Assembly: GCF_000423905.1 (NCBI RefSeq)
Contig: NZ_AUIW01000005.1
Coordinates: 1-64,000 of the forward strand
Reading direction: 5' to 3'
Length of the DNA: 64,000 bases
Source: Thermus antranikianii DSM 12462
GTDB lineage: Bacteria; Deinococcota; Deinococci; Deinococcales; Thermaceae
In this document: positions 272 to 9,812 of the stretch, in pieces
Layout of the letters: every line of letters begins with the position of its first letter
Numbering within the stretch: position 1 is the stretch's first letter
The notes under the pieces: generated by a model
Database searches by the model: none
Seen by the model: only the letters and a program-made list of their open reading frames with translations
Told to the model about the DNA's origin: nothing
Made by a program: the position numbers and the translations under genes

Positions 272-342
272 GGGGCACCTCCTCGTGCTAAGGTGTGCCC
301 CCCTATTAAACACGGACCCTTACACATAAATCCTTACACGAC
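1..342 (-). mobile_element. IS256-family insertion sequence, 5' end only
   Basis: The window opens inside an insertion element. It carries the N-terminal third of a mutator-type (IS256 family) transposase read on the minus strand. Its outer end lies near 338-342, where nirS coding sequence stops matching and an AT-richer stretch begins in which GTGTAAGG occurs twice (minus strand, 322-339), as expected of a terminal repeat. The other end and the target duplication are outside the window, so the exact boundary is inferred. Confidence 0.75.
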
Positions 343-1108
343 CGAGGGGCTCGAGGGTGAGGCCATCCAGAACCACCATGGTGGGCGGCCAGTAGCACCC
401 CACCACCGCATACTTATCCTCGTAGCCCTTGAACTTGCTGGACTCAATGGACCGGGCATCCAGGCAGGGCTTGGACTCCGCCACCACCTGGGGCGGGTTC
501 ATCCAGAGGTCTATCAGGCTCGCCTTCCCGTCCCGGCCGATGGCCATGAAGTACCGCCCCGTGGCGGACGAGCGCAGAATATGCGTGGCAAAACCGGTGG
601 GCACGATGGTCACCAACTCCTTCTTGTCCCCGTCGATGATGGCCACCTGGCCCGTATCCCGGAGCACCTGGCCGAAGAAGTTCTGCCAGTTGCGGTTATG
701 GAGGGGTTTGGTGGGCCGCTTCTCCGGCGGCACGTGCACCTTCCAGGTCTTCCTGATCTCCTCAAAGGTGGGAACTGGAGGCGACGGGGGCTGCTCCAAA
801 AGGAAGCGGGCAAGGAGCTCGATGTCCTTTTCCTTAAGAATCCCCTGCCGTCCCCAGTCGGGCATGCCCCCAGGAAGGCCGCCGAAGATCACCGCCTTCA
901 GGTACTCCACCCCCTTTTCCGCCATCTTCTTGGGATCAAGGGCGGGACCCGTCGCCCCCTTCCGCAACACCCCATGGCACCCAGCACAGCGGTCAAAGTA
1001 GATCTTGGCTGCCTCCTCCTTCTCCGCCGGGCTCAGGGGAGCAGGAGCCTGGGCCAAGGCCAAAGCGGCCAGCAGCAGAGGTCCTAATAAACCTAACGTT
1101 CTTTTCAC
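320..1108 (-). pseudogene. nirS: Cytochrome cd1 nitrite reductase, truncated by IS insertion
   Basis: NirS reduces nitrite to nitric oxide in the periplasm. Intact family members have about 540-570 residues; this frame has only 262. It has a signal peptide, a cytochrome c domain with the heme site CAGCHG, and the first blades of the d1-heme propeller, including THILRSSATGR, whose His is the proximal d1 ligand. The conserved KFKGYEDK block is also present. The frame then runs into the IS end and gains about five foreign residues before a stop, losing both catalytic d1-pocket histidines. The chosen start is GTG 1108, with GGAGGTGA five bases upstream; ATG 1123 is an alternative. Reductase function is almost certainly lost. 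Confidence 0.88.
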
Positions 1109-1127
1109 AGCTTTCACCTCCATCAAC

Positions 1128-1161
1128 TAGGATAGACATATCCGAGTAGTACAGATGTCCT
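1128..1161 (-). promoter_or_regulatory. nirS promoter with GACA-N2-TGTC-type dyad
   Basis: On the minus strand a -10-like TATCCT occupies 1134-1129. The dyad AGGACATCTGTACT (plus coordinates 1148-1161) is centred about 32.5 bases before the inferred transcript start. The same dyad recurs upstream of nirK and the reductase operon. There is no convincing -35 box. Confidence 0.5.
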
Positions 1162-1431
1162 ATGGCTAAAGTCCCTACAAATCTCCCCACCCAAACTAGC
1201 CGGGGGAAGGAAAGGCTAATGGGTATGCTCTTTTTCGCGGAAGGTGGTTGCCACCCACCACCCCCCTTGGGGATGAAGAGATAGGCCGCGGAGCGAAAAG
1301 CGATCAAGTACTTCCAGAACAGACACAAGTAGGGTAGCAGAATCATGCCTAAAGCCCCTAACGAAGGTGTAGAAAGAGCCCCCGAGGGTTCTCCCCGGGG
1401 ACCCTTGGAGGTCCTAAATGGGCGCTCCGGA
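1162..1431. other. nirS-nirK intergenic spacer, no gene seen
   Basis: I find no convincing gene in this spacer between the nirK stop and the nirS promoter. Frames here have poor codon use and no ribosome-binding site. A weak GC-rich hairpin (AGGGT 1385-1389 with ACCCT 1401-1405) could end the nirK transcript, and CCACC-rich inverted sequence occurs near 1245-1265. Nothing else is recognisable. Confidence 0.5.
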
Positions 1432-2787
1432 CTATTGGGAACTGGCCCGCTCACTCAAGGGCTCGTAGACACGGATGATCCCCTTCATGTACGGGTGGAT
1501 GCTGCAGATGTACACGTACTCCCCTGGCTTGGTGAAGGTGATGCGGTACCGTTCTGCGTGGCCCAGCTTGGGGGTCACAAAGGGCTCAGGCCCCTGCACG
1601 TCGATCACCACCGCATCATGCCGGCCCGTGCGTTCCCCCTCCAAGAGGTCGAAGATGTCTTCGTTGACGAACTCCACCGTGGTGCCCACGGGGATCTCCA
1701 GGACCTTGGGGTAGAAGGAGTTGCCCACCATCTGCACGGTGACGGGAAGGGGTTCTAAAGCCTTTGCCCCAACCGCGACCGGCTGGGCCAGGGCAGGATC
1801 CAAGGGCACCCGCACCGTGTGCTCGTGGCTGGGGGAAGCAAGCCCATAGGGATCGACCACCCGCTTGGCACTGGCGGGAATTTCCTTGACCCCGGGCACT
1901 CCCTCCGCCCGCACCTCAGGAATCCGGGGCGCATCCTTCCTCGCCCGCAGGATCCCCAAAGCCCCCTTGATGGCGGTACCGAAGACATGGGTTACCAAAG
2001 CGTAATCCCCCTCCACGGGCGGAACCCGCCATTCGATGACCCAGGAATCGCTCGGCCCCGCCAGAGCCGTCTGGGAGCCCACCACGAGGTTTTTCGGATT
2101 ACCCTGGTAGTACATGTACTCAAAGACCCCGCCCACCACGTGGAACGTGCTGGTAAGGTTGGGCCCCACGTTCAGGAAGTAGATGCGTAGATAATCCCCG
2201 GGACGCACGGGTATGGGTTCTTCCACGTAACGGAAGTTCCTGCCATTGAACATCACGTAAAGGGCCCTTCCATCGTAGAAATCCCGCCCTGAAGCGTAAG
2301 CCTCACTCTGGATTATGTAGAGCTTGAGGTCCGGCCCCCGGCCGAGCTCCCGCTCCATCCGGTACTTCTCCTTGGGCTCCACCACGATCATCCCAAACTG
2401 GCCACCCATGGTGTGGGCCATGATGCCGTGGCCCCCAGGGGCGCAGTGGTACATAAAAACTCCGGGAAAGTCCGCGGTAAAGCTGAACTCCCGGGTTTCC
2501 CCTGGCTGGACGTTGCCCAGGAACCTCGAGGTCTGGGTGTTGGCGGCATGGATGGAAAGGCCGTGGGTAACGCTATCCAAATTCCGAAGGACGATGTGTA
2601 CGGTATCCCCTTCCTCCACCACCAACATGGGCCCAGGGCTCATGTCGTTGAAGGAAAAGCCCCTGAGGTAAACCCCCTGATCCACCTCGAAGATGCTGGA
2701 GCGGGCCTCGAGGGTAAAGTGCCTTTCCGCCGCCACGCCTGGAATCCCTAAAACCAACCCCGCCAGTACGCCTAAAACTTTTCGCAT
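1432..2787 (-). CDS. nirK: Copper nitrite reductase with C-terminal cupredoxin domain
   Basis: This periplasmic enzyme reduces nitrite to NO. The 451-residue protein has a signal peptide (cleavage near 20) and two cupredoxin domains. Type 1 copper ligands are visible as H75, C115, H125 and M127. Type 2 ligands are H80, H114 and H216, the last in STFHVVGG. After about residue 340 a third cupredoxin follows with its own blue-copper set (H390, C428, H431, M434 in YICSIHPYMKG). Typical NirK has about 340-380 residues, so this is a three-domain form in which the extra domain could feed electrons to the core. GGGAGGTGAAGG precedes ATG 2787. It is the only intact nitrite reductase visible here. Confidence 0.93.
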   Translation of the reverse strand: MRKVLGVLAGLVLGIPGVAAERHFTLEARSSIFEVDQGVYLRGFSFNDMSPGPMLVVEEGDTVHIVLRNLDSVTHGLSIHAANTQTSRFLGNVQPGETREFSFTADFPGVFMYHCAPGGHGIMAHTMGGQFGMIVVEPKEKYRMERELGRGPDLKLYIIQSEAYASGRDFYDGRALYVMFNGRNFRYVEEPIPVRPGDYLRIYFLNVGPNLTSTFHVVGGVFEYMYYQGNPKNLVVGSQTALAGPSDSWVIEWRVPPVEGDYALVTHVFGTAIKGALGILRARKDAPRIPEVRAEGVPGVKEIPASAKRVVDPYGLASPSHEHTVRVPLDPALAQPVAVGAKALEPLPVTVQMVGNSFYPKVLEIPVGTTVEFVNEDIFDLLEGERTGRHDAVVIDVQGPEPFVTPKLGHAERYRITFTKPGEYVYICSIHPYMKGIIRVYEPLSERASSQ

Positions 2788-2827
2788 CCTTCACCTCCCA
2801 GGTCCTTACTCGGACCTTTCCATCTGT

Positions 2828-2875
2828 GTTTTAGCACCACCCCCCAAGGACAGGTGTCCTTGTGACAAATGTCCC
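2828..2875 (-). promoter_or_regulatory. nirK promoter region with two GACA-N2-TGTC dyads
   Basis: The minus strand carries a -10 candidate TAAAAC (2833-2828). A perfect 7-base-arm dyad, AAGGACAGGTGTCCTT, lies at 2846-2861, centred 32.5 bases before the inferred start. A second copy, GACAAATGTC, lies at 2864-2873, 15 bases further upstream. GAC-N4-GTC resembles the core of DNR/NNR-type CRP/FNR sites, but the cognate regulator is not proven. Confidence 0.55.
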
Positions 2876-2911
2876 AAGATGGGGAGCGCGCACCGAACGC
2901 CTCCCCCACCC

Positions 2912-2954
2912 TTGACCTCGATCAAAGCGATCCCGGCACGGACGGGGGTATCCT
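2912..2954 (+). promoter_or_regulatory. FNR-like box and leaderless promoter of the DUF454 gene
   Basis: TTGACCTCGATCAA (2912-2925) differs by one base from the FNR consensus TTGAT-N4-ATCAA. It is centred about 42 bases before the A of ATG 2961. A -10 box TATCCT (2949-2954) ends six bases before that ATG, so the transcript is predicted to be leaderless with a class II activator position. Confidence 0.5.
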
Positions 2955-2960
2955 CAGGCC

Positions 2961-3359
2961 ATGAGGCTGACCTTTTTGGGTTTAGGACTGCTCTTCACGG
3001 GGCTGGGCTTCCTGGGGGCCCTCCTTCCCATCCTCCCCTCCACCCCCTTTTTCCTGGTAGCGGCCTACCTCTTCTCCCGAAGCCATCCCCGCCTCGAGGT
3101 CTGGCTTCTTTCCCTACCCCAGGTAGGTCCTTTGGTGAAAAACTACCGGCAAGGCCTCGGCATCCCCAAAAGGACCAAGATTCTGGCCACGGTTTTAGCC
3201 CTAGGAGCAGCAAGCATCAGCACCTACGGTCTACCCCACCCCGCAGGCCAGGTAGCCGTAGTCCTCCTTATCGCCTACGGTATCTACTACATCTGGAAGC
3301 GCGTGCCCACCCTAGCGCCGGAGAAAGCCCCAAAAGACCAGGAACTCCCAAAGAGCTAA
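2961..3359 (+). CDS. DUF454 (YbaN-like) inner-membrane protein
   Basis: This is a small membrane protein of 132 residues with the DUF454 signature: a first hydrophobic helix with GxxGALLPILPSTPF, then YLFSRSHPRLEVWL, a basic loop GIPKRTK and two further membrane segments. The family has no established biochemical role, although members are often found beside respiratory or heme genes. The start is fixed by a -10 box six bases upstream, which indicates a leaderless mRNA. It sits head-to-head with nirK and has an FNR-like box in front, so I infer expression under low oxygen. Its 3' end overlaps the convergent gene at 3312 by 48 bases. Confidence 0.85.
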   Translation: MRLTFLGLGLLFTGLGFLGALLPILPSTPFFLVAAYLFSRSHPRLEVWLLSLPQVGPLVKNYRQGLGIPKRTKILATVLALGAASISTYGLPHPAGQVAVVLLIAYGIYYIWKRVPTLAPEKAPKDQELPKS

Positions 3360-3755
3360 AAAGCCCCCCAGGGCATCCACGTCTCCCCTTCCCCCCCAGG
3401 CCCAGCCGTAAGGGGTGGGGAGGGGAAGACCCGTAAACCGAGTCGCCCCGTAGAAGAGGAAGAGGCCCAAGGCCAGAAAGGTGGAGAACCGGTACAGTCC
3501 TCTTCCCAGGCGCCCTTCCAAGACCTCCGGGGCCACCAAGAGGAGGAAGAGGAGGGTGTAGCCCAAACCTCCCTGGAGGATCAGCCCCCCGAGGAGCACC
3601 CCCTCGTACAAGAAGGCCTCCGCTTCTCCCCCGTAGGCCCTCTGTCCCAGGCTGGCCAGAAGGTCTCCGCAGAAGCCCTTTAAACCCAGCCCCACCCCCA
3701 GGCCCTGAAGATGGGCTGGCAATAGGGCCAGAAGGGGCGGCAACCAGGGAGGCAT
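3312..3755 (-). CDS. Hypothetical membrane protein, four hydrophobic segments
   Basis: I do not recognise the family. The 147-residue product is very hydrophobic, with about four membrane segments and a glycine-rich LPTPYGWAWGGRGD loop near the C-terminus. ATG 3755 is preceded at six bases by TACCCT (-10), which fits a leaderless transcript. The shared dyad at 3781-3794 lies 32.5 bases upstream, exactly as at nirS and nirK. It is divergent from the 41-aa/CuA/heme-copper operon and shares that control region, so a role in the same NO or nitrite response is inferred. A longer frame upstream of 3755 is low quality and was not used. Confidence 0.6.
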   Translation of the reverse strand: MPPWLPPLLALLPAHLQGLGVGLGLKGFCGDLLASLGQRAYGGEAEAFLYEGVLLGGLILQGGLGYTLLFLLLVAPEVLEGRLGRGLYRFSTFLALGLFLFYGATRFTGLPLPTPYGWAWGGRGDVDALGGFLALWEFLVFWGFLRR

Positions 3756-3780
3756 GCCCTCAGGGTACCGGGAAGGGGAA

Positions 3781-3836
3781 AGGACATTTGTACTTGACGC
3801 CGCCAGGGAGGGGACTAAAACTAGGACTTGTAAGTC
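3781..3836. promoter_or_regulatory. Divergent control region of the CuA-type reductase operon
   Basis: AGGACATTTGTAC (3781-3793) is another copy of the nir dyad. On the plus strand a -35-like TTGACG (3794-3799) and -10-like TAAAAC (3816-3821) follow with a 16-base spacer, putting the dyad near -40.5. A second palindrome, GACTTGTAAGTC, lies just downstream (about 3824-3835), overlapping the expected transcript start, and may be a repressor site. On the minus strand the first dyad serves the gene starting at 3755. Confidence 0.5.
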
Positions 3837-3854: not shown

Positions 3855-3980
3855 ATGGCAGAGAAAGGTCACTGGTTCTTGGATAACCCCTGGCTCCTCC
3901 TTGCCCTTCACATGGCGCTCTTCGTTGGGCTTTATCTTATCTGGGGCTGGTTGGACATCAGCCGGATTCCCGGCCGTTAG
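3855..3980 (+). CDS. 41-residue single-span subunit of the heme-copper complex
   Basis: This small open frame begins at ATG 3855 with TTAGGAGGTG in front and encodes 41 residues: a short polar N-terminus (MAEKGHWFLDNP), one membrane span and the tail SRIPGR. Its stop codon overlaps the ribosome-binding site of the CuA subunit gene. Position and size match subunit IIa (CbaD, 34 residues) of Thermus ba3 oxidase, whose operon has the same order. I infer an accessory helix packed on subunit I or II. The sequence itself is not obviously homologous to CbaD. Confidence 0.75.
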   Translation: MAEKGHWFLDNPWLLLALHMALFVGLYLIWGWLDISRIPGR

Positions 3981-3989
3981 GAGGTAGCC

Positions 3990-4520
3990 ATGGCCCTTCA
4001 TACCCCTCCCAAAAACTGGCTGGAGGAACAGGTCAGCCCAGAAGAGCGGGTCTGGCTAGTCCTGGCCACCCTCTTTGCCATCGTCTTCCTCTCCGCCTTC
4101 ATGGGGCTTTGGCACCTGACCGGCCGCCAGACCACCCACGGGGAGGCCTATAGGGTAGACCCAGCATCCTTCCGGCAAGAGGTGCTGGCCTTCGCCGAGC
4201 GTTACCAAGTGGGGGAACTCAATGGCATCCCCGTGGTGGCCCCGCCTCCTGGGGATGTTTACCTCATGGCCCAGGCCTTCAGCTGGTACCCAGTCCTGAA
4301 GCTGAAGAAAGGGGAAACCTACCGCCTTAGGGTAGCCTCGGTGGACTATCCCCATGGCTTCAGCCTGTACCCCCACGAGTGGAGCATCCAGCTTTACCCT
4401 GGTTACGAGTGGGTCTACTCCTTCACGCCCACCAAGGCGGGAGAGTACGCCCTTATCTGCAACGACTACTGCGGCTTAGGGCACCACCTGATGGTGGGAC
4501 GGATTCTGGTGGAAGAGTAG
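3990..4520 (+). CDS. CuA-containing subunit II of a ba3-type heme-copper complex
   Basis: Subunit II takes electrons from a periplasmic donor through a binuclear CuA centre. The 176-residue protein has a cytoplasmic N-tail, one membrane helix (about 21-43) and a periplasmic cupredoxin domain. The CuA ligands are H122 in YPHGFSL and C157, C161, H165 and M168 in CNDYCGLGHHLM, close to the CNQYCGLGH motif of T. thermophilus ba3 subunit II. Size and topology also match ba3 rather than the longer A-type subunit II. GGAGGTAGCC precedes ATG 3990. It is cotranscribed with the 41-aa gene and the catalytic subunit. Electron donors could be cytochrome c552 or the NirK cupredoxin; this is inference. Confidence 0.9.
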   Translation: MALHTPPKNWLEEQVSPEERVWLVLATLFAIVFLSAFMGLWHLTGRQTTHGEAYRVDPASFRQEVLAFAERYQVGELNGIPVVAPPPGDVYLMAQAFSWYPVLKLKKGETYRLRVASVDYPHGFSLYPHEWSIQLYPGYEWVYSFTPTKAGEYALICNDYCGLGHHLMVGRILVEE

Positions 4521-4529
4521 GAGGAATCT

Positions 4530-6212
4530 ATGGCGCTTCCCTTGGAACGCACCTGCCCTGCCACAGGGCTCAGGTTGTTTAGCACTGCGGAAACCCTGGT
4601 CAAGATCAACGCCGTGGTTGCGGTGGTCTTCCTGCTCCTGGGCTTTCTCTGGGTCATCCCGAGCATCATCAACCGGGTCCTGGGGCCCGGGGTAGTTTCC
4701 CCCCAGCTCTACTATCAGGCCACCTTCCTCCACGGCTGGAACATGCTCATTTTCTGGATTCTCTTCTTTGAGGTGGCCCTCCTCTACTTCGCTGCCTCTG
4801 CCCTCCTCAAGACCCCCCTCCGCTTCCCTGGCCTGGCCTGGGGAGGATTCTGGCTCATGCTCCTGGGAGCGGTCCTCATCAACTATCTGGGCGTGGCAAG
4901 CCCGAGCAACTTCCTCCCCTTCACCCCTTACGTGCCCCTGCAGGCCCCGCCCCTCTTCTACCTGGCGGTCATCCTCTTCGCCGTGGGAGCCATTTTAGCG
5001 GTCTTCGTCTTCTTCGCTACCCTACACCGGGCCTGGCGAGAGAAAACCTATGGGGCCACCATGCCCCTAGGCGCCTTCGGGGCCCTCACCGCAGCCATCT
5101 TAGCCACCACCACCCTGCTTTCCGGGGCCATCGCCTTCATTCCCACCTTCCTCTGGTCCTTAGGATGGCTCAAGGTAGATCCCCTCTGGTTCCGGCACAC
5201 CTACTGGGGCTTCGGCCACGGCGCCCAGCAGGTAAACCTGGCCGCCATGGTCACCGTTTGGTACCTCCTGGCCCTCTTCACCGTGGGAGGTACCACTCCC
5301 AGCGAAAGGCTCTCCCGCATCGCCTTCCTCCTCTATTTGCTGGGCATCAATCTAGGCTCCGCCCACCACCTCCTCACCGAGCCCACAGGAGCCCTCTCCA
5401 GCGCCTGGACCTGGGTGAACACCGGTTACCTCATCCACGTGGCCGTCCTTGGAAGCTTGATCCACGCCTTCTCGGTGCCTGCGGCCATCGAGCGGGGTCT
5501 GCGGTTGAAGGGGTTCACCCAGGGGCTTTTCGGCTGGTTAGCCCGGGCTCCCTGGGGAAATCCCGGCTTCTCCGCCCTGGTGCTTTCTGTCATCCTTTTC
5601 GGCTTCCTGGGAGGGATGAGTGGGGTCACCATGGGCTCCTACGATCAGAACCTTAAGTGGCACAACACCCTGGCGGTGGTGGGCCACTTCAAGGGGACGG
5701 TGGTGGCCGGCACCAGCCTGGCCTTCATGGGCCTTACCTACTACCTCTTGCCCCTCATCTTCCGCCGGAAGCTCATCTGGCCCCGGCTCGCCGCCTGGCA
5801 ACCGTGGCTCTTTGGGCTGGGCATGGGTCTCCTTTCCCTGGCCATGTTGCGCCTGGGAGTGGTGTATGGGCTTCCTCGGCGCTCTGGGGACACCTTCCAG
5901 TTCGGGGGAAGCCCCTTCGCCTTCCCATACCCTCCAGAGATGGCTACTCTTCTCGCCGCCATGGGCATCGGGGGAACCCTGGCCCTTCTGGGAGGGCTCC
6001 TTTTTGTCCTCCTGGCGGTGGGCACCCTGCTATGGGGTAAACCTTTGACCGACGAAGAAATCCAAAACGCCTACCAAGTGAAAGCGGAGGAAGGACACGC
6101 CACCCCCAAGGGTGTCTACCTCCTGGCCCTACTCTTCCTGGCTTTCTTCCTGATCTACTACCTCTACAACCACTGGTTCCTCTCTCAGGCCTGGCTCATC
6201 GGAGGAAGGTAG
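4530..6212 (+). CDS. Heme-copper subunit I, probable CuA-dependent nitric oxide reductase
   Basis: The 560-residue catalytic subunit has about 13 membrane helices and B-type (ba3-like) spacing. CuB ligands are H230 (FGHGAQQ) and H279-H280 (SAHHLLTEP), the high-spin heme ligand is H386, and a low-spin heme ligand is H68 (FLHGWN). Two departures matter. The tyrosine four residues after the first CuB histidine, needed for O2 reduction, is Q234, the position of the cNOR glutamate. The second low-spin heme histidine is K388 (GHFKGT instead of GHFHLQ). With nirK, nirS, ScdA-N and Rrf2 genes around it, NO reduction is more likely than oxygen reduction. Annotation pipelines would probably call it cytochrome c oxidase subunit I. 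Confidence 0.8.
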   Translation: MALPLERTCPATGLRLFSTAETLVKINAVVAVVFLLLGFLWVIPSIINRVLGPGVVSPQLYYQATFLHGWNMLIFWILFFEVALLYFAASALLKTPLRFPGLAWGGFWLMLLGAVLINYLGVASPSNFLPFTPYVPLQAPPLFYLAVILFAVGAILAVFVFFATLHRAWREKTYGATMPLGAFGALTAAILATTTLLSGAIAFIPTFLWSLGWLKVDPLWFRHTYWGFGHGAQQVNLAAMVTVWYLLALFTVGGTTPSERLSRIAFLLYLLGINLGSAHHLLTEPTGALSSAWTWVNTGYLIHVAVLGSLIHAFSVPAAIERGLRLKGFTQGLFGWLARAPWGNPGFSALVLSVILFGFLGGMSGVTMGSYDQNLKWHNTLAVVGHFKGTVVAGTSLAFMGLTYYLLPLIFRRKLIWPRLAAWQPWLFGLGMGLLSLAMLRLGVVYGLPRRSGDTFQFGGSPFAFPYPPEMATLLAAMGIGGTLALLGGLLFVLLAVGTLLWGKPLTDEEIQNAYQVKAEEGHATPKGVYLLALLFLAFFLIYYLYNHWFLSQAWLIGGR

Positions 6213-6268: not shown

Positions 6269-6694
6269 ATGCCAGTGCGAAGCCTCTTGAGACGCGAAGA
6301 GTCCTACGCCCTGCATGCCCTCTTGTTGCTAGCGGAAGAACCCGGCTTAAGCGCAGCGGAGATCGCCGCCAAGCTCAAGGCCCCTCCTGCCTTTATGGCC
6401 AAGGTCCTCTCCAAGCTGGCCAAAGCGGGCTTGGTGGAAAGCCGCATGGGCCGAGCAGGAGGGGTGTGGTTAAAAGCTCCCCCAGAGGGGATCACCCTGC
6501 TTAAGGTGATGGAAAGCCTCTCTGGACCTGTGGCCCTGGACCTTTGCGCCATCTTAAAGCGCTGCCCCACAGAGGAGAGGCGGGGATTCTGCTACCTCAA
6601 GCCAAACCTGGTGCGGATGAACCAGGAAATCCGCAAAGCCCTCGAGGGCCTGACCCTAAAGGATCTCCTGCCCGAGGCTACCCATCCCGCTTGA
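6269..6694 (+). CDS. Rrf2-family Fe-S transcriptional regulator (NsrR/IscR-like)
   Basis: The 141-residue protein has an N-terminal winged helix (YALHALLLLAEE, then an AAEIAAKLKAPPAFMAKVL recognition region) and an RMGRAGG wing, all typical of Rrf2. Three cysteines at 93, 99 and 108 (spacing x5 and x8) sit where NsrR and IscR bind their iron-sulfur cluster. In this setting an NO-sensing repressor like NsrR is the likeliest role. GGAGG lies just before ATG 6269, and TACTAT lies six bases upstream as a possible -10. A direct repeat of CCCGGGGGATT just upstream could be its own operator. Alternatives are IscR- or RirA-like sensing. Confidence 0.82.
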   Translation: MPVRSLLRREESYALHALLLLAEEPGLSAAEIAAKLKAPPAFMAKVLSKLAKAGLVESRMGRAGGVWLKAPPEGITLLKVMESLSGPVALDLCAILKRCPTEERRGFCYLKPNLVRMNQEIRKALEGLTLKDLLPEATHPA

Positions 6695-6741
6695 CCCAGG
6701 TCATGGCGGTCCACCCCCCCGGGTGCCAAGCTTAGGGGGGT

Positions 6742-6939
6742 ATGGTGGAACTCACCTTAAAGACCACGGTAAACAGGGTCTTGCAACGCCACCCGGAAGC
6801 GGTGAGCTTGCTAAACGAGATGGGCATAGATACCTGCTGTGGCGGAGCCGATTCCCTGGAGGAAGCCGCCCGCCAAGCAGGCAAGGACCCCGAAGAGGTA
6901 TTGAAGGCCCTCCTGGCCTTTTTGGGGAGGGAAGGATGA
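6742..6939 (+). CDS. DUF542/ScdA-N domain protein (NO or Fe-S stress related)
   Basis: This 65-residue protein consists only of the ScdA N-terminal domain: TVNRVLQRHPEAVSLLNEMGI followed by the diagnostic DTCCGG with adjacent cysteines at 32-33, then a helical tail. In ScdA/YtfE/Ric proteins the domain precedes a di-iron hemerythrin-like domain that repairs NO-damaged Fe-S clusters; here that partner is absent. Stand-alone forms are common in denitrifiers. It overlaps the cupin gene by ATGA, so the two are probably translationally coupled, and it follows the Rrf2 gene, which is likely to control it. Confidence 0.85.
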   Translation: MVELTLKTTVNRVLQRHPEAVSLLNEMGIDTCCGGADSLEEAARQAGKDPEEVLKALLAFLGREG

Positions 6940-7232
6940 ACCTCTTGGAGAAGGCCCGCTACGGCCAGGTCCGGGGGGTGGAACTCCTGGCCGATCACCC
7001 GGAAGTGCGCCTGATCCTCTTCAGCCTGCAAAAGGGGCAGGAGGTCCGGGGTAAAGGGGAACCCCGGGTTCACCTGCTTTGCCTCGAGGGGGAGGGCATC
7101 CTGTGGGCCGGGGAGCGAACCCTCCCCGCCACCCCGGGCACCCTCCTGGCGGCAGAGCCGGGAGAGGCCCACGGGGCCAGGGCCGGGGAAGGAACCTTCC
7201 TGGTGCTAGGCATCCTCACCCCTAGGCCATGA
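6936..7232 (+). CDS. Small cupin-fold protein
   Basis: The 98-residue protein is predicted to be a single cupin barrel: EVRLILFSLQKGQEV, a GEPRVHLLCLEGEG strand pair, then PGTLLAAEPGEAHGARA, where the EPGEAHG turn resembles the second cupin metal motif. The first motif is reduced: H75-like ligands are partly missing, so metal binding is uncertain. It starts at ATG 6936, inside the stop of the DUF542 gene, and ends by overlapping the next start (ATGA at 7229). It therefore belongs to a tightly coupled Rrf2-DUF542-cupin-membrane protein unit. Substrate is unknown. Confidence 0.7.
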   Translation: MNLLEKARYGQVRGVELLADHPEVRLILFSLQKGQEVRGKGEPRVHLLCLEGEGILWAGERTLPATPGTLLAAEPGEAHGARAGEGTFLVLGILTPRP

Positions 7233-7606
7233 TTCCGGCAAGCCGGCTTGCCCTCACCACGGCCCTCCTCTGGTTCCTGGCGGCAAGCCTGGTGGGCCTG
7301 CTCCTAGGCCTGGGCCTCCTTCCCTATAGCTGGAGGCCCGCCCACGCCCACATGCAGCTTCTGGGCTTCGTAAGCCTTATGATCTACGGAGTAGCCTACC
7401 ACGCCCTTCCCCGGTTCCGGGGGGTGGTCTTCCGCAGGCCGGGACTGGCCCTCCTGCAAGTGCTCCTGGCCAACCTCAGCCTTCTGGGAATGGCCTTAGC
7501 CTGGGGCTTCGGGCTTGGGACCTACATATGGGGGTTTTTCGCTCTTCTTTCGCTTCTAGCCGGAGGCCTTTTCGTCCTCCTCATGCTGGAGGTACTCTGG
7601 GGCTAA
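7229..7606 (+). CDS. Four-helix membrane protein resembling part of heme-copper subunit I
   Basis: The 125-residue product has four membrane segments. Its core HAHMQLLGFVSLMIYG with following AYHALPRF resembles the heme-binding helix region of NorB and cbb3-type subunit I, with H39, H41 and H58 as candidate heme ligands. It is far too short to be a catalytic subunit (450 residues or more). Such proteins are usually annotated as cytochrome c oxidase subunit I-like and occur in nitrogen-oxide clusters. It could be a small heme protein, a NO sensor or an assembly factor for the reductase at 4530; none of these is shown. It overlaps the cupin gene by four bases. Confidence 0.7.
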   Translation: MIPASRLALTTALLWFLAASLVGLLLGLGLLPYSWRPAHAHMQLLGFVSLMIYGVAYHALPRFRGVVFRRPGLALLQVLLANLSLLGMALAWGFGLGTYIWGFFALLSLLAGGLFVLLMLEVLWG

Positions 7607-7633
7607 GAAACCCTAAGGACTTCGGAGAACGGT

Positions 7634-8731
7634 ATGCGTGCGACAAGCGTTCCCCTTAAAGCCGTAGCCCTTCCCACGGAGCACGGGGGCTGGGGGTTTA
7701 CCCTAGAACCCATCCTCCTGGGCCTACTCCTCTCGCCAGGACCCCACACCCTGGGGCTATTCCTCCTGGGCCTTTTCGGGTTTCTGGCCCGGCACCCCTT
7801 GAAGCTGGTCTACCAGGACCTAAGGAAGGGCAAACGCTACCCCCGCACCGAGCTGGCCTTAAAGGTGGGCGGGGCCTATTTGGCCCTGGCCCTTCTGGGC
7901 CTTCTCCTTACCGCCTTGACCGCCAAAGGCCCCTTCCTCCTCCCCCTTCTTTTGGCGGTGCCCTTGGGGGTCTACATGCTCTGGGCGGATGCCTCAAACC
8001 GTTCCCGGGACCTTTTCCCCGAGATCGCCGCCGCCTTGGCCATGGCTTCCTTGGCCCCTGCGGGGGTTTTGGCAGGAGGCTTGGAGCCGGGGATCGCTTT
8101 GGGAAGCTTTCTCGCCTTAGCCATCAGGGATATCGCCGCCCTGTACTATGCCCGCACCCAGGTGCTCAGGGCCCGGGGAAGAAACCCCAAGCATTACCCC
8201 GCCCACCTGACCCTCTGGACCTCCTCCCTCCTCGCCCTTCTTCTTCAAGGCCAAGGGCTTCTGCCTGCCCCCACTACCCTTGCCCTTTTCCTCCTGGCCC
8301 TTTATGGAAGTCTCGCCCTCTTGAGACCCCCGGTGGAGGCCAGGATCATCGGCTGGACCCAGATAGGCTTTGGCCTTTTGGTGGTCCTGGCCACCGCTTT
8401 GGGCTATACCCTTGAGGGCCTTCCCACCGCCCTTTTGGGGGTGCCGCTTCTGCACCGGTTCCTGGGGTGGACCCTGGTGGGATTGGCCTTTCTGGCAGGG
8501 CTTTACCTCCTCCTGCGGAAAGAGATAACCAGGCCCGTGCGCCTTCTCCTGGGGCTTTACGACCTGAACGCCCTCTTGGGCCTCCTCTACCTGGCCTTTC
8601 TCTGGAAGCCCCTCCCTCACCCCCTCCTGGCCCTCATCGGGGTGGCCCTCCTCCACCTCCTCCTGAAAAAACCCCATCCCTGGCCCGGGGTTGGCTTCCT
8701 CCTCCTGGGATTCCTCCTTCTTTGGCACTGA
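7634..8731 (+). CDS. YwiC-like integral membrane protein
   Basis: The 365-residue protein is almost wholly hydrophobic, with about 10-12 membrane segments. The N-terminal half has YwiC-family marks: ALPTEHGGWGFTLEP at the start, a RHPLKLVYQDL loop, and a conserved RDIAALYYAR segment near 165. The family was named from the Bacillus subtilis narK-fnr-ywiC-narGHJI region, so linkage to anaerobic nitrogen-oxide respiration is recurrent, but no function is established. The C-terminal third, after about residue 230, looks like a further membrane domain. The polar motifs with E and H near the membrane start hint at a UbiA-like fold; this is speculative. Confidence 0.75.
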   Translation: MRATSVPLKAVALPTEHGGWGFTLEPILLGLLLSPGPHTLGLFLLGLFGFLARHPLKLVYQDLRKGKRYPRTELALKVGGAYLALALLGLLLTALTAKGPFLLPLLLAVPLGVYMLWADASNRSRDLFPEIAAALAMASLAPAGVLAGGLEPGIALGSFLALAIRDIAALYYARTQVLRARGRNPKHYPAHLTLWTSSLLALLLQGQGLLPAPTTLALFLLALYGSLALLRPPVEARIIGWTQIGFGLLVVLATALGYTLEGLPTALLGVPLLHRFLGWTLVGLAFLAGLYLLLRKEITRPVRLLLGLYDLNALLGLLYLAFLWKPLPHPLLALIGVALLHLLLKKPHPWPGVGFLLLGFLLLWH

Positions 8732-8789
8732 GGTCCATGGTGGGCGGAACCACCCTCTTCCTCTCCCTGCTACCGGGGAAAATAGAAGC

Positions 8790-9812
8790 ATGAGGAAAGC
8801 CAGGGGGATCCTCCTTCTTCTTCCCTTGGCCGGGGCCCTCTACGCCCTGTGGAGCCAGCCTGTACAGCTTTGGGGTAGGCCAGAAAACGTAACTTGGGAA
8901 CTGGCCCAGGCGCCTCCTGAACGCCTGCAGGAGGTCTACACCAGGGCCCATCCCGCCGTCTTGCGCATAGACGGCCCGGAGGGAAGCCGGGGCACAGGGT
9001 TCTTTTATCGGGAGGGCCTCGTCCTTACCGCCTACCACGTGGTGGCCGAGGGCGGGCCTTATACCCTGGTGCTCTCCAACCAAAAGCGGGCCACGGCCAC
9101 CCTTCTCGGTTTCGCCGAGCCCATGGACCTGGCGATCCTGGCCACGGAGGCCCGGGCCCCCGCCCTCCTTTCCCTGGAAACCCAAAGGCGCCCCCAGGTG
9201 GGGGAAGCAGTCTTGCACATCGGCAACGGGCGCAACCAGTTCATCGCCCCCCGGTATGGGCGCATCACCCGGCTTTTCGTGGACCCCTCGCCTTTTCTCC
9301 CCCAGGGCCTGGTGGAAACCAGCCTCCCCCTTTCCCCCGGGGATTCGGGAGGACCCGTGCTGGACCTCGAGGGAAAAGTGGTGGGGGTGGCGGTGGCCAT
9401 CGGCCAGACGGAGGAGGGCTTCCGAAGTTTCTTCACCCCGTTCCTGGGCCGGGGCCAGGTCCTGGCGGAGATGGAAGGGGGTAAGCGAAGCTACTGGCCC
9501 TACCTGGGCCTGAGGGGTCCAAGGGGCTTAACCCCAGAGCTGGCCCGGGAGCTGGGCCTGCCCCCGGGTGGGGTGCTGGTGGGCGAGGTGGTCCCGGGCG
9601 GGGCCGCCCACCGGGCAGGGCTTAGGGGCCTGGAGACAGGAGGGGTGCCGGATGTGATCCTCGAGGTCAACGGGGTCAAGGTGAACAGCTTCGAGGACCT
9701 CCTGCGGGAGGTGCGCCGCCACCAGGTGGGGGACCGGGTCCGCCTTAGTGTGCGCCGGGGCGGGGAGGTCCTCCAGGTAGAGGTGGAGCTCGCTCCCTTT
9801 CCCGGAAGGTGA
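8790..9812 (+). CDS. HtrA/DegP-type secreted serine protease with PDZ domain
   Basis: This is a periplasmic quality-control protease of 340 residues. An N-terminal signal or anchor helix (about 5-20) leads into a trypsin-like domain with the catalytic triad H83 (TAYHVV), D113 (PMDLAIL) and S186 (PGDSGGP). One PDZ domain follows from about residue 240 (GGVLVGEVVPGGAAHRAGL, later VILEVNGVKVNSFEDL). One PDZ and an anchor resemble DegS/HtrA of Gram-positives. ATG 8790 is chosen because a longer frame upstream has no signal features. The gene abuts the convergent peptidase gene at TGATCA with no spacer. Confidence 0.9.
   Translation: MRKARGILLLLPLAGALYALWSQPVQLWGRPENVTWELAQAPPERLQEVYTRAHPAVLRIDGPEGSRGTGFFYREGLVLTAYHVVAEGGPYTLVLSNQKRATATLLGFAEPMDLAILATEARAPALLSLETQRRPQVGEAVLHIGNGRNQFIAPRYGRITRLFVDPSPFLPQGLVETSLPLSPGDSGGPVLDLEGKVVGVAVAIGQTEEGFRSFFTPFLGRGQVLAEMEGGKRSYWPYLGLRGPRGLTPELARELGLPPGGVLVGEVVPGGAAHRAGLRGLETGGVPDVILEVNGVKVNSFEDLLREVRRHQVGDRVRLSVRRGGEVLQVEVELAPFPGR

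Follow-up and report, generated by a model that had tools for sequence, protein, structure and literature searches.

The window analysed here, positions 1 to 64,000 of contig NZ_AUIW01000005.1 of Thermus antranikianii DSM 12462 (G000:C5:1-64000; the genome, G000, has 2.16 Mb in 33 contigs), carries a truncated nirS and a nirK-like gene on the minus strand, and on the plus strand an operon resembling nitric oxide reductase (NOR-like operon) followed by nsrR-nsrS-nsrT. Upstream of nirS, nirK and the NOR-like operon lie copies of a short inverted repeat, termed dyad A below, whose distribution and likely reader are considered here. An earlier note on this DNA had listed four copies with the common core GACA-N2-TGT, and the sequences of all four were recovered in the window (Table 1). 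The pattern GACANNTGT gives six strand-matches in the 64 kb, every one of them at these four sites, compared with a mean of 2.19 in dinucleotide shuffles of the window (n = 100), among which six or more matches occur in 3 of 100. The dyad is real.

Table 1. Coordinates of the genes, dyads and predicted promoter elements discussed in the text (window positions; bp, base pairs).
Feature	Position	Strand	Remarks
nirS, 5' part, truncated	320..1126	-	comprises the cytochrome c domain plus roughly 114 of the 368 positions in the d1-heme domain
Predicted -10 box of nirS	1129..1134	-	TATCCT; +21 from dyad centre
Dyad A, nirS	1149..1160, centre 1154.5	-	GGACATCTGTAC
Possible degenerate second dyad, nirS	1163..1174	-	GGACTTTAGCCA; 14 bp upstream; read from the sequence
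nirK-like multicopper nitrite reductase	1432..2787	-	with C-terminal cupredoxin domain
Predicted -10 box of nirK	2828..2833	-	TAAAAC; +21 from proximal dyad centre
Dyad A, proximal to nirK	2848..2859, centre 2853.5	-	AAGGACAGGTGTCCTT (form given in the earlier note), GGACACCTGTCC
Second nirK dyad	2863..2874	-	GGACATTTGTCA; 15 bp upstream of the proximal dyad; core GACAAATGTC at 2864-2873
Dyad-B-like element before DUF454 gene	2912..2925	+	TTGACCTCGATCAA
Dyad A, NOR-like operon	3782..3793	+	GGACATTTGTAC, directly followed by TTGACG
Predicted -10 box of NOR-like operon	3816..3821	+	TAAAAC; +29 from dyad centre
NOR-like operon	3855..6212	+	small subunit 3855-3980, CuA subunit II 3990-4520, subunit I 4530-6212
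nsrR-nsrS-nsrT	6269..7232	+	141, 65 and 98 amino acids
Dyad B before nsrS	6691..6703	+	TTGACC-N2-GGTCA; published NsrR/DnrT operator type, distinct from the GACA dyads

Comparison of the sites gave an extended 14-bp form, RGKACAWWTGTMCY, and a strict search pattern, GKACANNTGTMC, which was counted against its own reversal, a control that matches dinucleotide content inexactly. The strict pattern occurs at 12 places in G000 (2 for the control), at 74 in six Thermus genomes (9) and at 306 in 27 Thermus genomes (41), sites exceeding control in each of the 27. Enrichment extends to 23 other Thermaceae (163 strict sites, 35 control) and to the 14 genomes of family f4 (64 and 7), is weaker in the 39 genomes of family f5 (146 and 87) and is absent from the eight genomes of f2/f3 (35 and 34). 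Among 102 promoter-oriented sites, the positions left free in the search pattern are a purine at -7 and a pyrimidine at +7 in 102 of 102, for a selected set in which many sites are orthologous and hence non-independent. A or T predominates at the two central bases, and the A/T pair beside the centre is not absolute, with GGGACTTTTGTAC found in some NOR-like orthologues and GGACTTATGTCC at the dnrS/narC promoter of G000 itself. Tandem dyads occur at nirK (15 bp apart), nirS (14 bp, the second degenerate), the type II NADH dehydrogenase (NDH-2) gene in G051 (18 bp) and the ba3 oxidase operon in G026 and G004 (32-35 bp). As far as the open-access literature was searched, the dyad does not appear in published descriptions.

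The window sites are themselves conserved. The nirS dyad is kept in G003, G007, G010, G014 and G015 and on the plasmids of T. thermophilus SG0.5JP17-16 and NAR1, and its second copy comes nearer to a dyad in G015 (GGACGTTTGTCT) and in T. thermophilus (GGACTTTTGTCT). The proximal nirK dyad is present in the other eight Thermus genomes with a strong nirK match; the core of the second is retained in five of these (G006, G014, G015, G021 and G024) and degenerate in G009, G010 and G011. Orthologues of the NOR-like operon retain GGAC-N4-GTAC-TTGAC (five rows including that of the window, L021 and L360 being the same sequence).

The genes behind the dyad were surveyed from the surroundings of strict sites in 11 Thermus genomes, a target being counted where a site lies no more than 300 bases upstream of a tblastn match to a reference target. 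By this measure 102 of 114 sites stand upstream of a recurrent target (99 without hemA, SCO1 and ywiC, each seen once), a figure that is inflated, as the reference targets were drawn from the counted sites, and that shows recurrence, not blind prediction. By genome the fractions are 11/12 in G000, 9/9 in G003, 11/15 in G007, 13/14 in G010, 11/12 in G014, 12/12 in G015, 6/9 in G026, 8/10 in G019, 5/5 in G018, 6/6 in G013 and 10/10 in G004. A motif equally common inside coding regions had been named beforehand as the outcome that would speak against the dyad; the result favours it, as 11 of the 12 strict sites of G000 lie just upstream of a recurrent target, and the twelfth (C2:142314) falls at the start of a V-ATPase subunit gene, identified by eye.

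The regulon is much wider than denitrification. Outside denitrification its targets (assigned by Pfam where scanned) are the ba3 oxidase operon, the CtaA-CtaB genes of heme A synthesis, NosD, the copper chaperone PCuAC and SCO1. The others are a cytochrome c, a multiheme cytochrome that was read as subunit one of alternative complex III, a protoglobin, a sulfite dehydrogenase-like molybdopterin enzyme, a periplasmic binding protein, a TetR regulator and, at the sox locus, a thioredoxin together with a divergent cytochrome c. The denitrification targets are nirS, nirK, the NOR-like operon and the shared dnrS/narC promoter, which in G000 lies on contig 6 (L156:5439-8798, with dnrT, dnrS and divergent narC-narG) and bears the variant dyad given above between dnrS and narC. 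Two labels used in the survey refer to relatives: at sox loci "narC" is the NarC-like divergent cytochrome c, and at ba3 loci "NORsub" is a subunit II cross-match. In the T. thermophilus-like G026, 70 residues of ba3 subunit II match 1ehk chain B over the whole length (146 bits). In other Thermaceae and G035 the dyad also precedes genes for NDH-2, uroporphyrinogen decarboxylase, ctaA, ba3 and protoglobin. The ba3 and ctaA promoters have GGACAAATGTACTTCACC in common, identical in several genomes (L005, L009 and orthologues).

Promoter geometry was expressed as the distance from the centre of the dyad to the base at which the best -10 hexamer begins, with transcript starts predicted by placing the -10 box at -12. 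The earlier note had put the dyad centre at -32.5 at three minus-strand promoters; this is right at nirS (-10 box TATCCT) and at the nirK-proximal dyad (-10 box TAAAAC), while a third such promoter was not found in the window and the second nirK dyad would sit at -47.5. Its value of about -40.5 for the plus-strand operon was confirmed (TAAAAC after TTGACG). The distance proved constant within a promoter class, nirS and nirK orthologues being invariant at +21, and differs between classes, so that the claim of one fixed distance stands only in part. The spacing is +21 in 8/8 true nirS rows, in 9/9 nirK rows and the NAR1 nirK row, and in 11/13 actA rows; it is +22 for cytochrome c (12/12), +24 for TetR (6/7), +29 for the NOR-like operon (3/5), +31 for ba3 (9/15) and +32 for ctaA (10/13), corresponding to predicted centres at -32.5, -33.5, -35.5, -40.5, -42.5 and -43.5. 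At dnrS it is scattered (+21 in 3/6, +22 in 2/6, +20 in 1/6), and Meiothermus-like rows fall mostly outside the ba3 and ctaA peaks. The +21 and +31-32 classes differ by one helical turn. A ninth "nirS" row (L364) was excluded as it had picked up the nirK dyad, the true nirS -10 box of L364 being also at +21 by inspection, and L021 and L360 are one locus in these rows. The soxW, nosD, sulfite-dehydrogenase, NDH-2 and narC-side promoters, which showed no consistent -10 box by eye, were left out of the computation.

Dyad A is separate from the operator described for the denitrification regulators DnrT and NsrR, here termed dyad B. The literature drawn on here is PMC5748679, PMC7694296, PMC6282519, PMC8465061, PMC10318464, PMC3091678 and PMC1274311. 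The DnrT footprint at Pnrc covers CCTTCACCTTACTCCTTGACCCCGGTCAT, which contains TTGACCCCGGTCA (PMC7694296), and binding of NsrR_Th requires CTTGACCNNGGTCATGG (PMC5748679). Dyad A, GGACA-N2-TGTCC, differs from the former, with dyad B standing separately at nrc, and does not match the latter. When both were mapped on three named T. thermophilus plasmids, dyad B was found before nrc, nirJ, norC/nsrR, nsrS and a DUF2249 gene, and dyad A before nirS, dnrS/narC, nirK and the NOR-like operon. The two share a neighbourhood, a GAC-N4-GTC core, the geometry of the centre and the kind of target operons; however, the NsrR_Th/DnrT operator (CTTGACC-N2-GGTCATGG) has TT flanks where dyad A has RG and C/G where dyad A has A/T beside the centre, and it is found at nrc, nirJ, norC/nsrR and nsrS but not at nirS, nirK, the NOR-like operon or dnrS/narC.

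The distribution of DnrT is likewise narrower than that of the dyad. Relatives of DnrT with at least about 80% identity are encoded in 21 of 27 Thermus genomes (the copies in G023 and G024 being fragmentary), whereas G004, G013, G018, G019, G020 and G026 have only matches of at most 38%, read as cAMP-type CRP. These six genomes, one of which is 65% complete, hold 45 dyads compared with 10 control sites, and in the five of them that were surveyed 35 of 40 sites stand at the same core genes, so that the dyad is not confined to genomes encoding DnrT. Since dyad B is the DnrT/NsrR operator and dyad A is kept without a close DnrT relative, dyad A is therefore not explained by DnrT or NsrR. On contig 4 of G024 (7288-9169), dnrT is broken into two parts separated by about 1.2 kb, which would fit an insertion within the gene.

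That one regulator is common to these nirS, nirK and NOR-like promoters, as the earlier note held, is well supported, and from the distribution of sites we infer that a single protein may act at all of them. On balance, RGKACAWWTGTMCY appears to be the operator of a respiratory regulator encoded in the core genome of the Thermaceae and adopted by mobile denitrification promoters. A dimeric transcription factor of the core genome would bind it and tune the respiratory chain, including the ba3 oxidase, heme A synthesis, copper insertion, alternative complex III, cytochromes, sulfur oxidation and protoglobin, possibly in response to an oxygen or redox signal. The nirS, nirK, NOR-like and dnrS/narC promoters of mobile clusters, carrying the host operator, would then follow the respiratory state of the host, with DnrT and NsrR working at other promoters through the second dyad, TTGACC-N2-GGTCA. 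Most sites lie between -32 and -43, with a -35 element that is poor or overlapped, and at these the factor would be an activator. At the protoglobin gene the dyad runs right up to the start codon, its centre lying 7 bases before the start, in G000 (L006:1499-1512), G003, G007, G010, G014, G015, G026, G018 and G004, a position unusual for an activator that could hardly help the polymerase and suits repression. A mixed activator and repressor would be the simplest reading.

The models built on DnrST and NsrR explain much of denitrification control in Thermus, and they leave the near-constitutive nirS in an aerobic host and the regulation of the ba3 oxidase unexplained. PnirS is nearly constitutive in HB27, which according to the literature lacks DnrS and DnrT; it is DnrT-independent, with a two-fold effect of DnrS and repression by nsrRST, and PnirJ and PnorC require DnrS, DnrT and nsrRST (PMC5748679). 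For nirS these published requirements agree with the division between dyads A and B. A shared operator for the core respiration of oxygen and the mobile respiration of nitrogen oxides would point to one testable cause and supply a probe for the missing regulator. The evidence seems to us evenly poised on the wider proposal that an undescribed master regulator of respiration acts throughout the Thermaceae, and that part of what lets mobile denitrification clusters function in a new host is that the nirS, nirK, NOR-like and dnr/nar promoters come with the host operator beside the imported DnrT/NsrR operator.

Several observations weigh against a core-encoded regulator. Among all genomes no regulator gene was found with the dyad upstream throughout, and no autoregulated master gene. 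The dyad centre shifts from -32.5 to -43.5 among promoter classes. The dnrS/narC promoter has only dyad A in the examined record, yet DnrT has also been reported as necessary for Pnar and Pdnr, and the dyad stands immediately before the gene of a DnrT relative (64% identity) in G035. Since NarG and PnirS are reported to respond to DnrS, this protein may be what binds the dyad in denitrifying strains. The inexact control and the origin of the reference targets, both described above, belong here as well.

By geometry, the remaining candidates for the protein are NarL/DosR-type regulators, a CRP/FNR protein such as TTHA1567, or DnrS in denitrifiers. The first would be a specific form of the core-regulator reading, with a GerE-type response regulator as the core factor, and is a tentative possibility. 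The DosR box of mycobacteria, GGGACT-NN-AGTCCC, which serves a hypoxia and nitric oxide regulon, has the same GGGAC-N4-GTCCC geometry and differs in having T/A where dyad A has A/T beside the centre. Of the four GerE proteins encoded in G000, one has its gene immediately behind that of an apparent GAF-type histidine kinase (judged by eye), but the strict dyad lies upstream of none of the four genes, and none of these regulators could be linked to the dyad.

Binding by DnrS, or by relatives of it, would make the DnrS-dependent promoters those with dyad A, and seems rather doubtful. The dyad lies in the shared dnrS/narC promoter, the GAF and BTAD domains of DnrS were confirmed with Pfam, and in one study the induction of PnirS and the NarG protein (the latter in one experiment) were DnrS-dependent and DnrT-independent; DNA binding by DnrS could not be assayed in the published work. 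Against this, HB27 is without DnrS, the dyad is retained before core genes by Thermus genomes that have no close relative of DnrT, the operon partner of DnrS (dnrS itself was not searched there), and BTAD/SARP proteins usually bind direct repeats.

A CRP/FNR protein, with DnrT as the leading candidate of the earlier note, fits the GAC-N4-GTC geometry as a dimer, though we think it improbable that such a protein binds dyad A. CRP/FNR sites in general have G5-A4 in each half-site and a short central spacer; in dyad A, position 4 is an invariant A and position 5 is G in 77 and T in 25 of the 102 sites, and geometry alone is unspecific. The recognition helix of DnrT, P-E-x-x-S-R, is FNR/DNR-like. 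TTHA1567 is the only CRP/FNR protein of HB8 without a structure or sites named in the introduction of PMC8465061, the same source giving for SdrP (TTHA1359) AWTGTRA-N6-TYACAWT and for TTHB099 TGTR..YACA with ten bases between GT and AC, both of which dyad A mismatches. Against DnrT stand its footprint, which is dyad B, the DnrT independence of PnirS, the promoter with the clearest dyad A, and the enrichment of the dyad in genomes without a close DnrT relative; the 14-15 bp tandems at nirS and nirK would, moreover, leave little room for two CRP-size dimers. Given the dnrS/narC promoter, DnrT keeps a slight probability as the regulator acting at dyad A. T. thermophilus has been reported to lack an FNR-like sensor. 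Regulons of the FNR, FixK and RegA type join terminal oxidases, cytochromes and denitrification, a span similar to that of dyad A with a different operator.

The local Rrf2 protein, the alternative of the earlier note, is a very improbable reader of the GACA dyad: NsrR_Th is encoded directly downstream of the NOR-like operon, represses PnirS in vivo and binds a PnirS fragment, but its operator CTTGACCNNGGTCATGG, of the dyad B type and found at other promoters, is present before nsrS at 6691, and the GACA dyad stands at core respiratory genes far from nsrR.

Further families were tried and set aside. The BlaI/MecI/CopY operator is TACA-N2-TGTA, and the corresponding Penicillinase_R domain (PF03965) passes the Pfam cut-off in none of 27 Thermus genomes, with a weak match in two. 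A TetR gene is present in all 27 and the strict dyad precedes it in 9 of 11 genomes (not in G018 and G026), which made autoregulation look likely; a separate CTAAC..GTTAG element, seen by eye, lies at its start codon (L001:1501-1560 and orthologues), and the gene is therefore treated as a target and not as the regulator. The cyanobacterial LexA box (AGTACWNWTGTACT) is nearly the same 14-bp dyad, but LexA targets DNA repair whereas the targets of dyad A are respiratory; the T. thermophilus lineage is reported to have lost LexA (PMC1274311), G000 itself not having been searched. For Rex, the literature search met no report of a Thermus motif.

Turning to the neighbouring genes, the Rrf2 protein of the window is NsrR_Th by size and gene order, the 47-base gap between nsrR and nsrS and the lengths of NsrR, NsrS and NsrT matching those published for T. 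thermophilus. The dyad-B-like TTGACCTCGATCAA upstream of the DUF454 gene suggests that this gene may be controlled by DnrT or NsrR. Subunit I of the NOR-like operon (4530-6212) aligns with ba3 oxidase, with GHGAQQ in place of GHPIVY and hence Q at the position of the ba3 active-site Tyr, and the operon probably encodes reduction of nitric oxide; use of nitric oxide has been speculated for the related CbcBA (PMC7694296). The nirS frame stops at 264 amino acids, compared with 511-542 in orthologues. Next to the cut-short gene, where the contig ends, is a reading frame resembling a transposase, and the dyad and promoter still precede the remnant.

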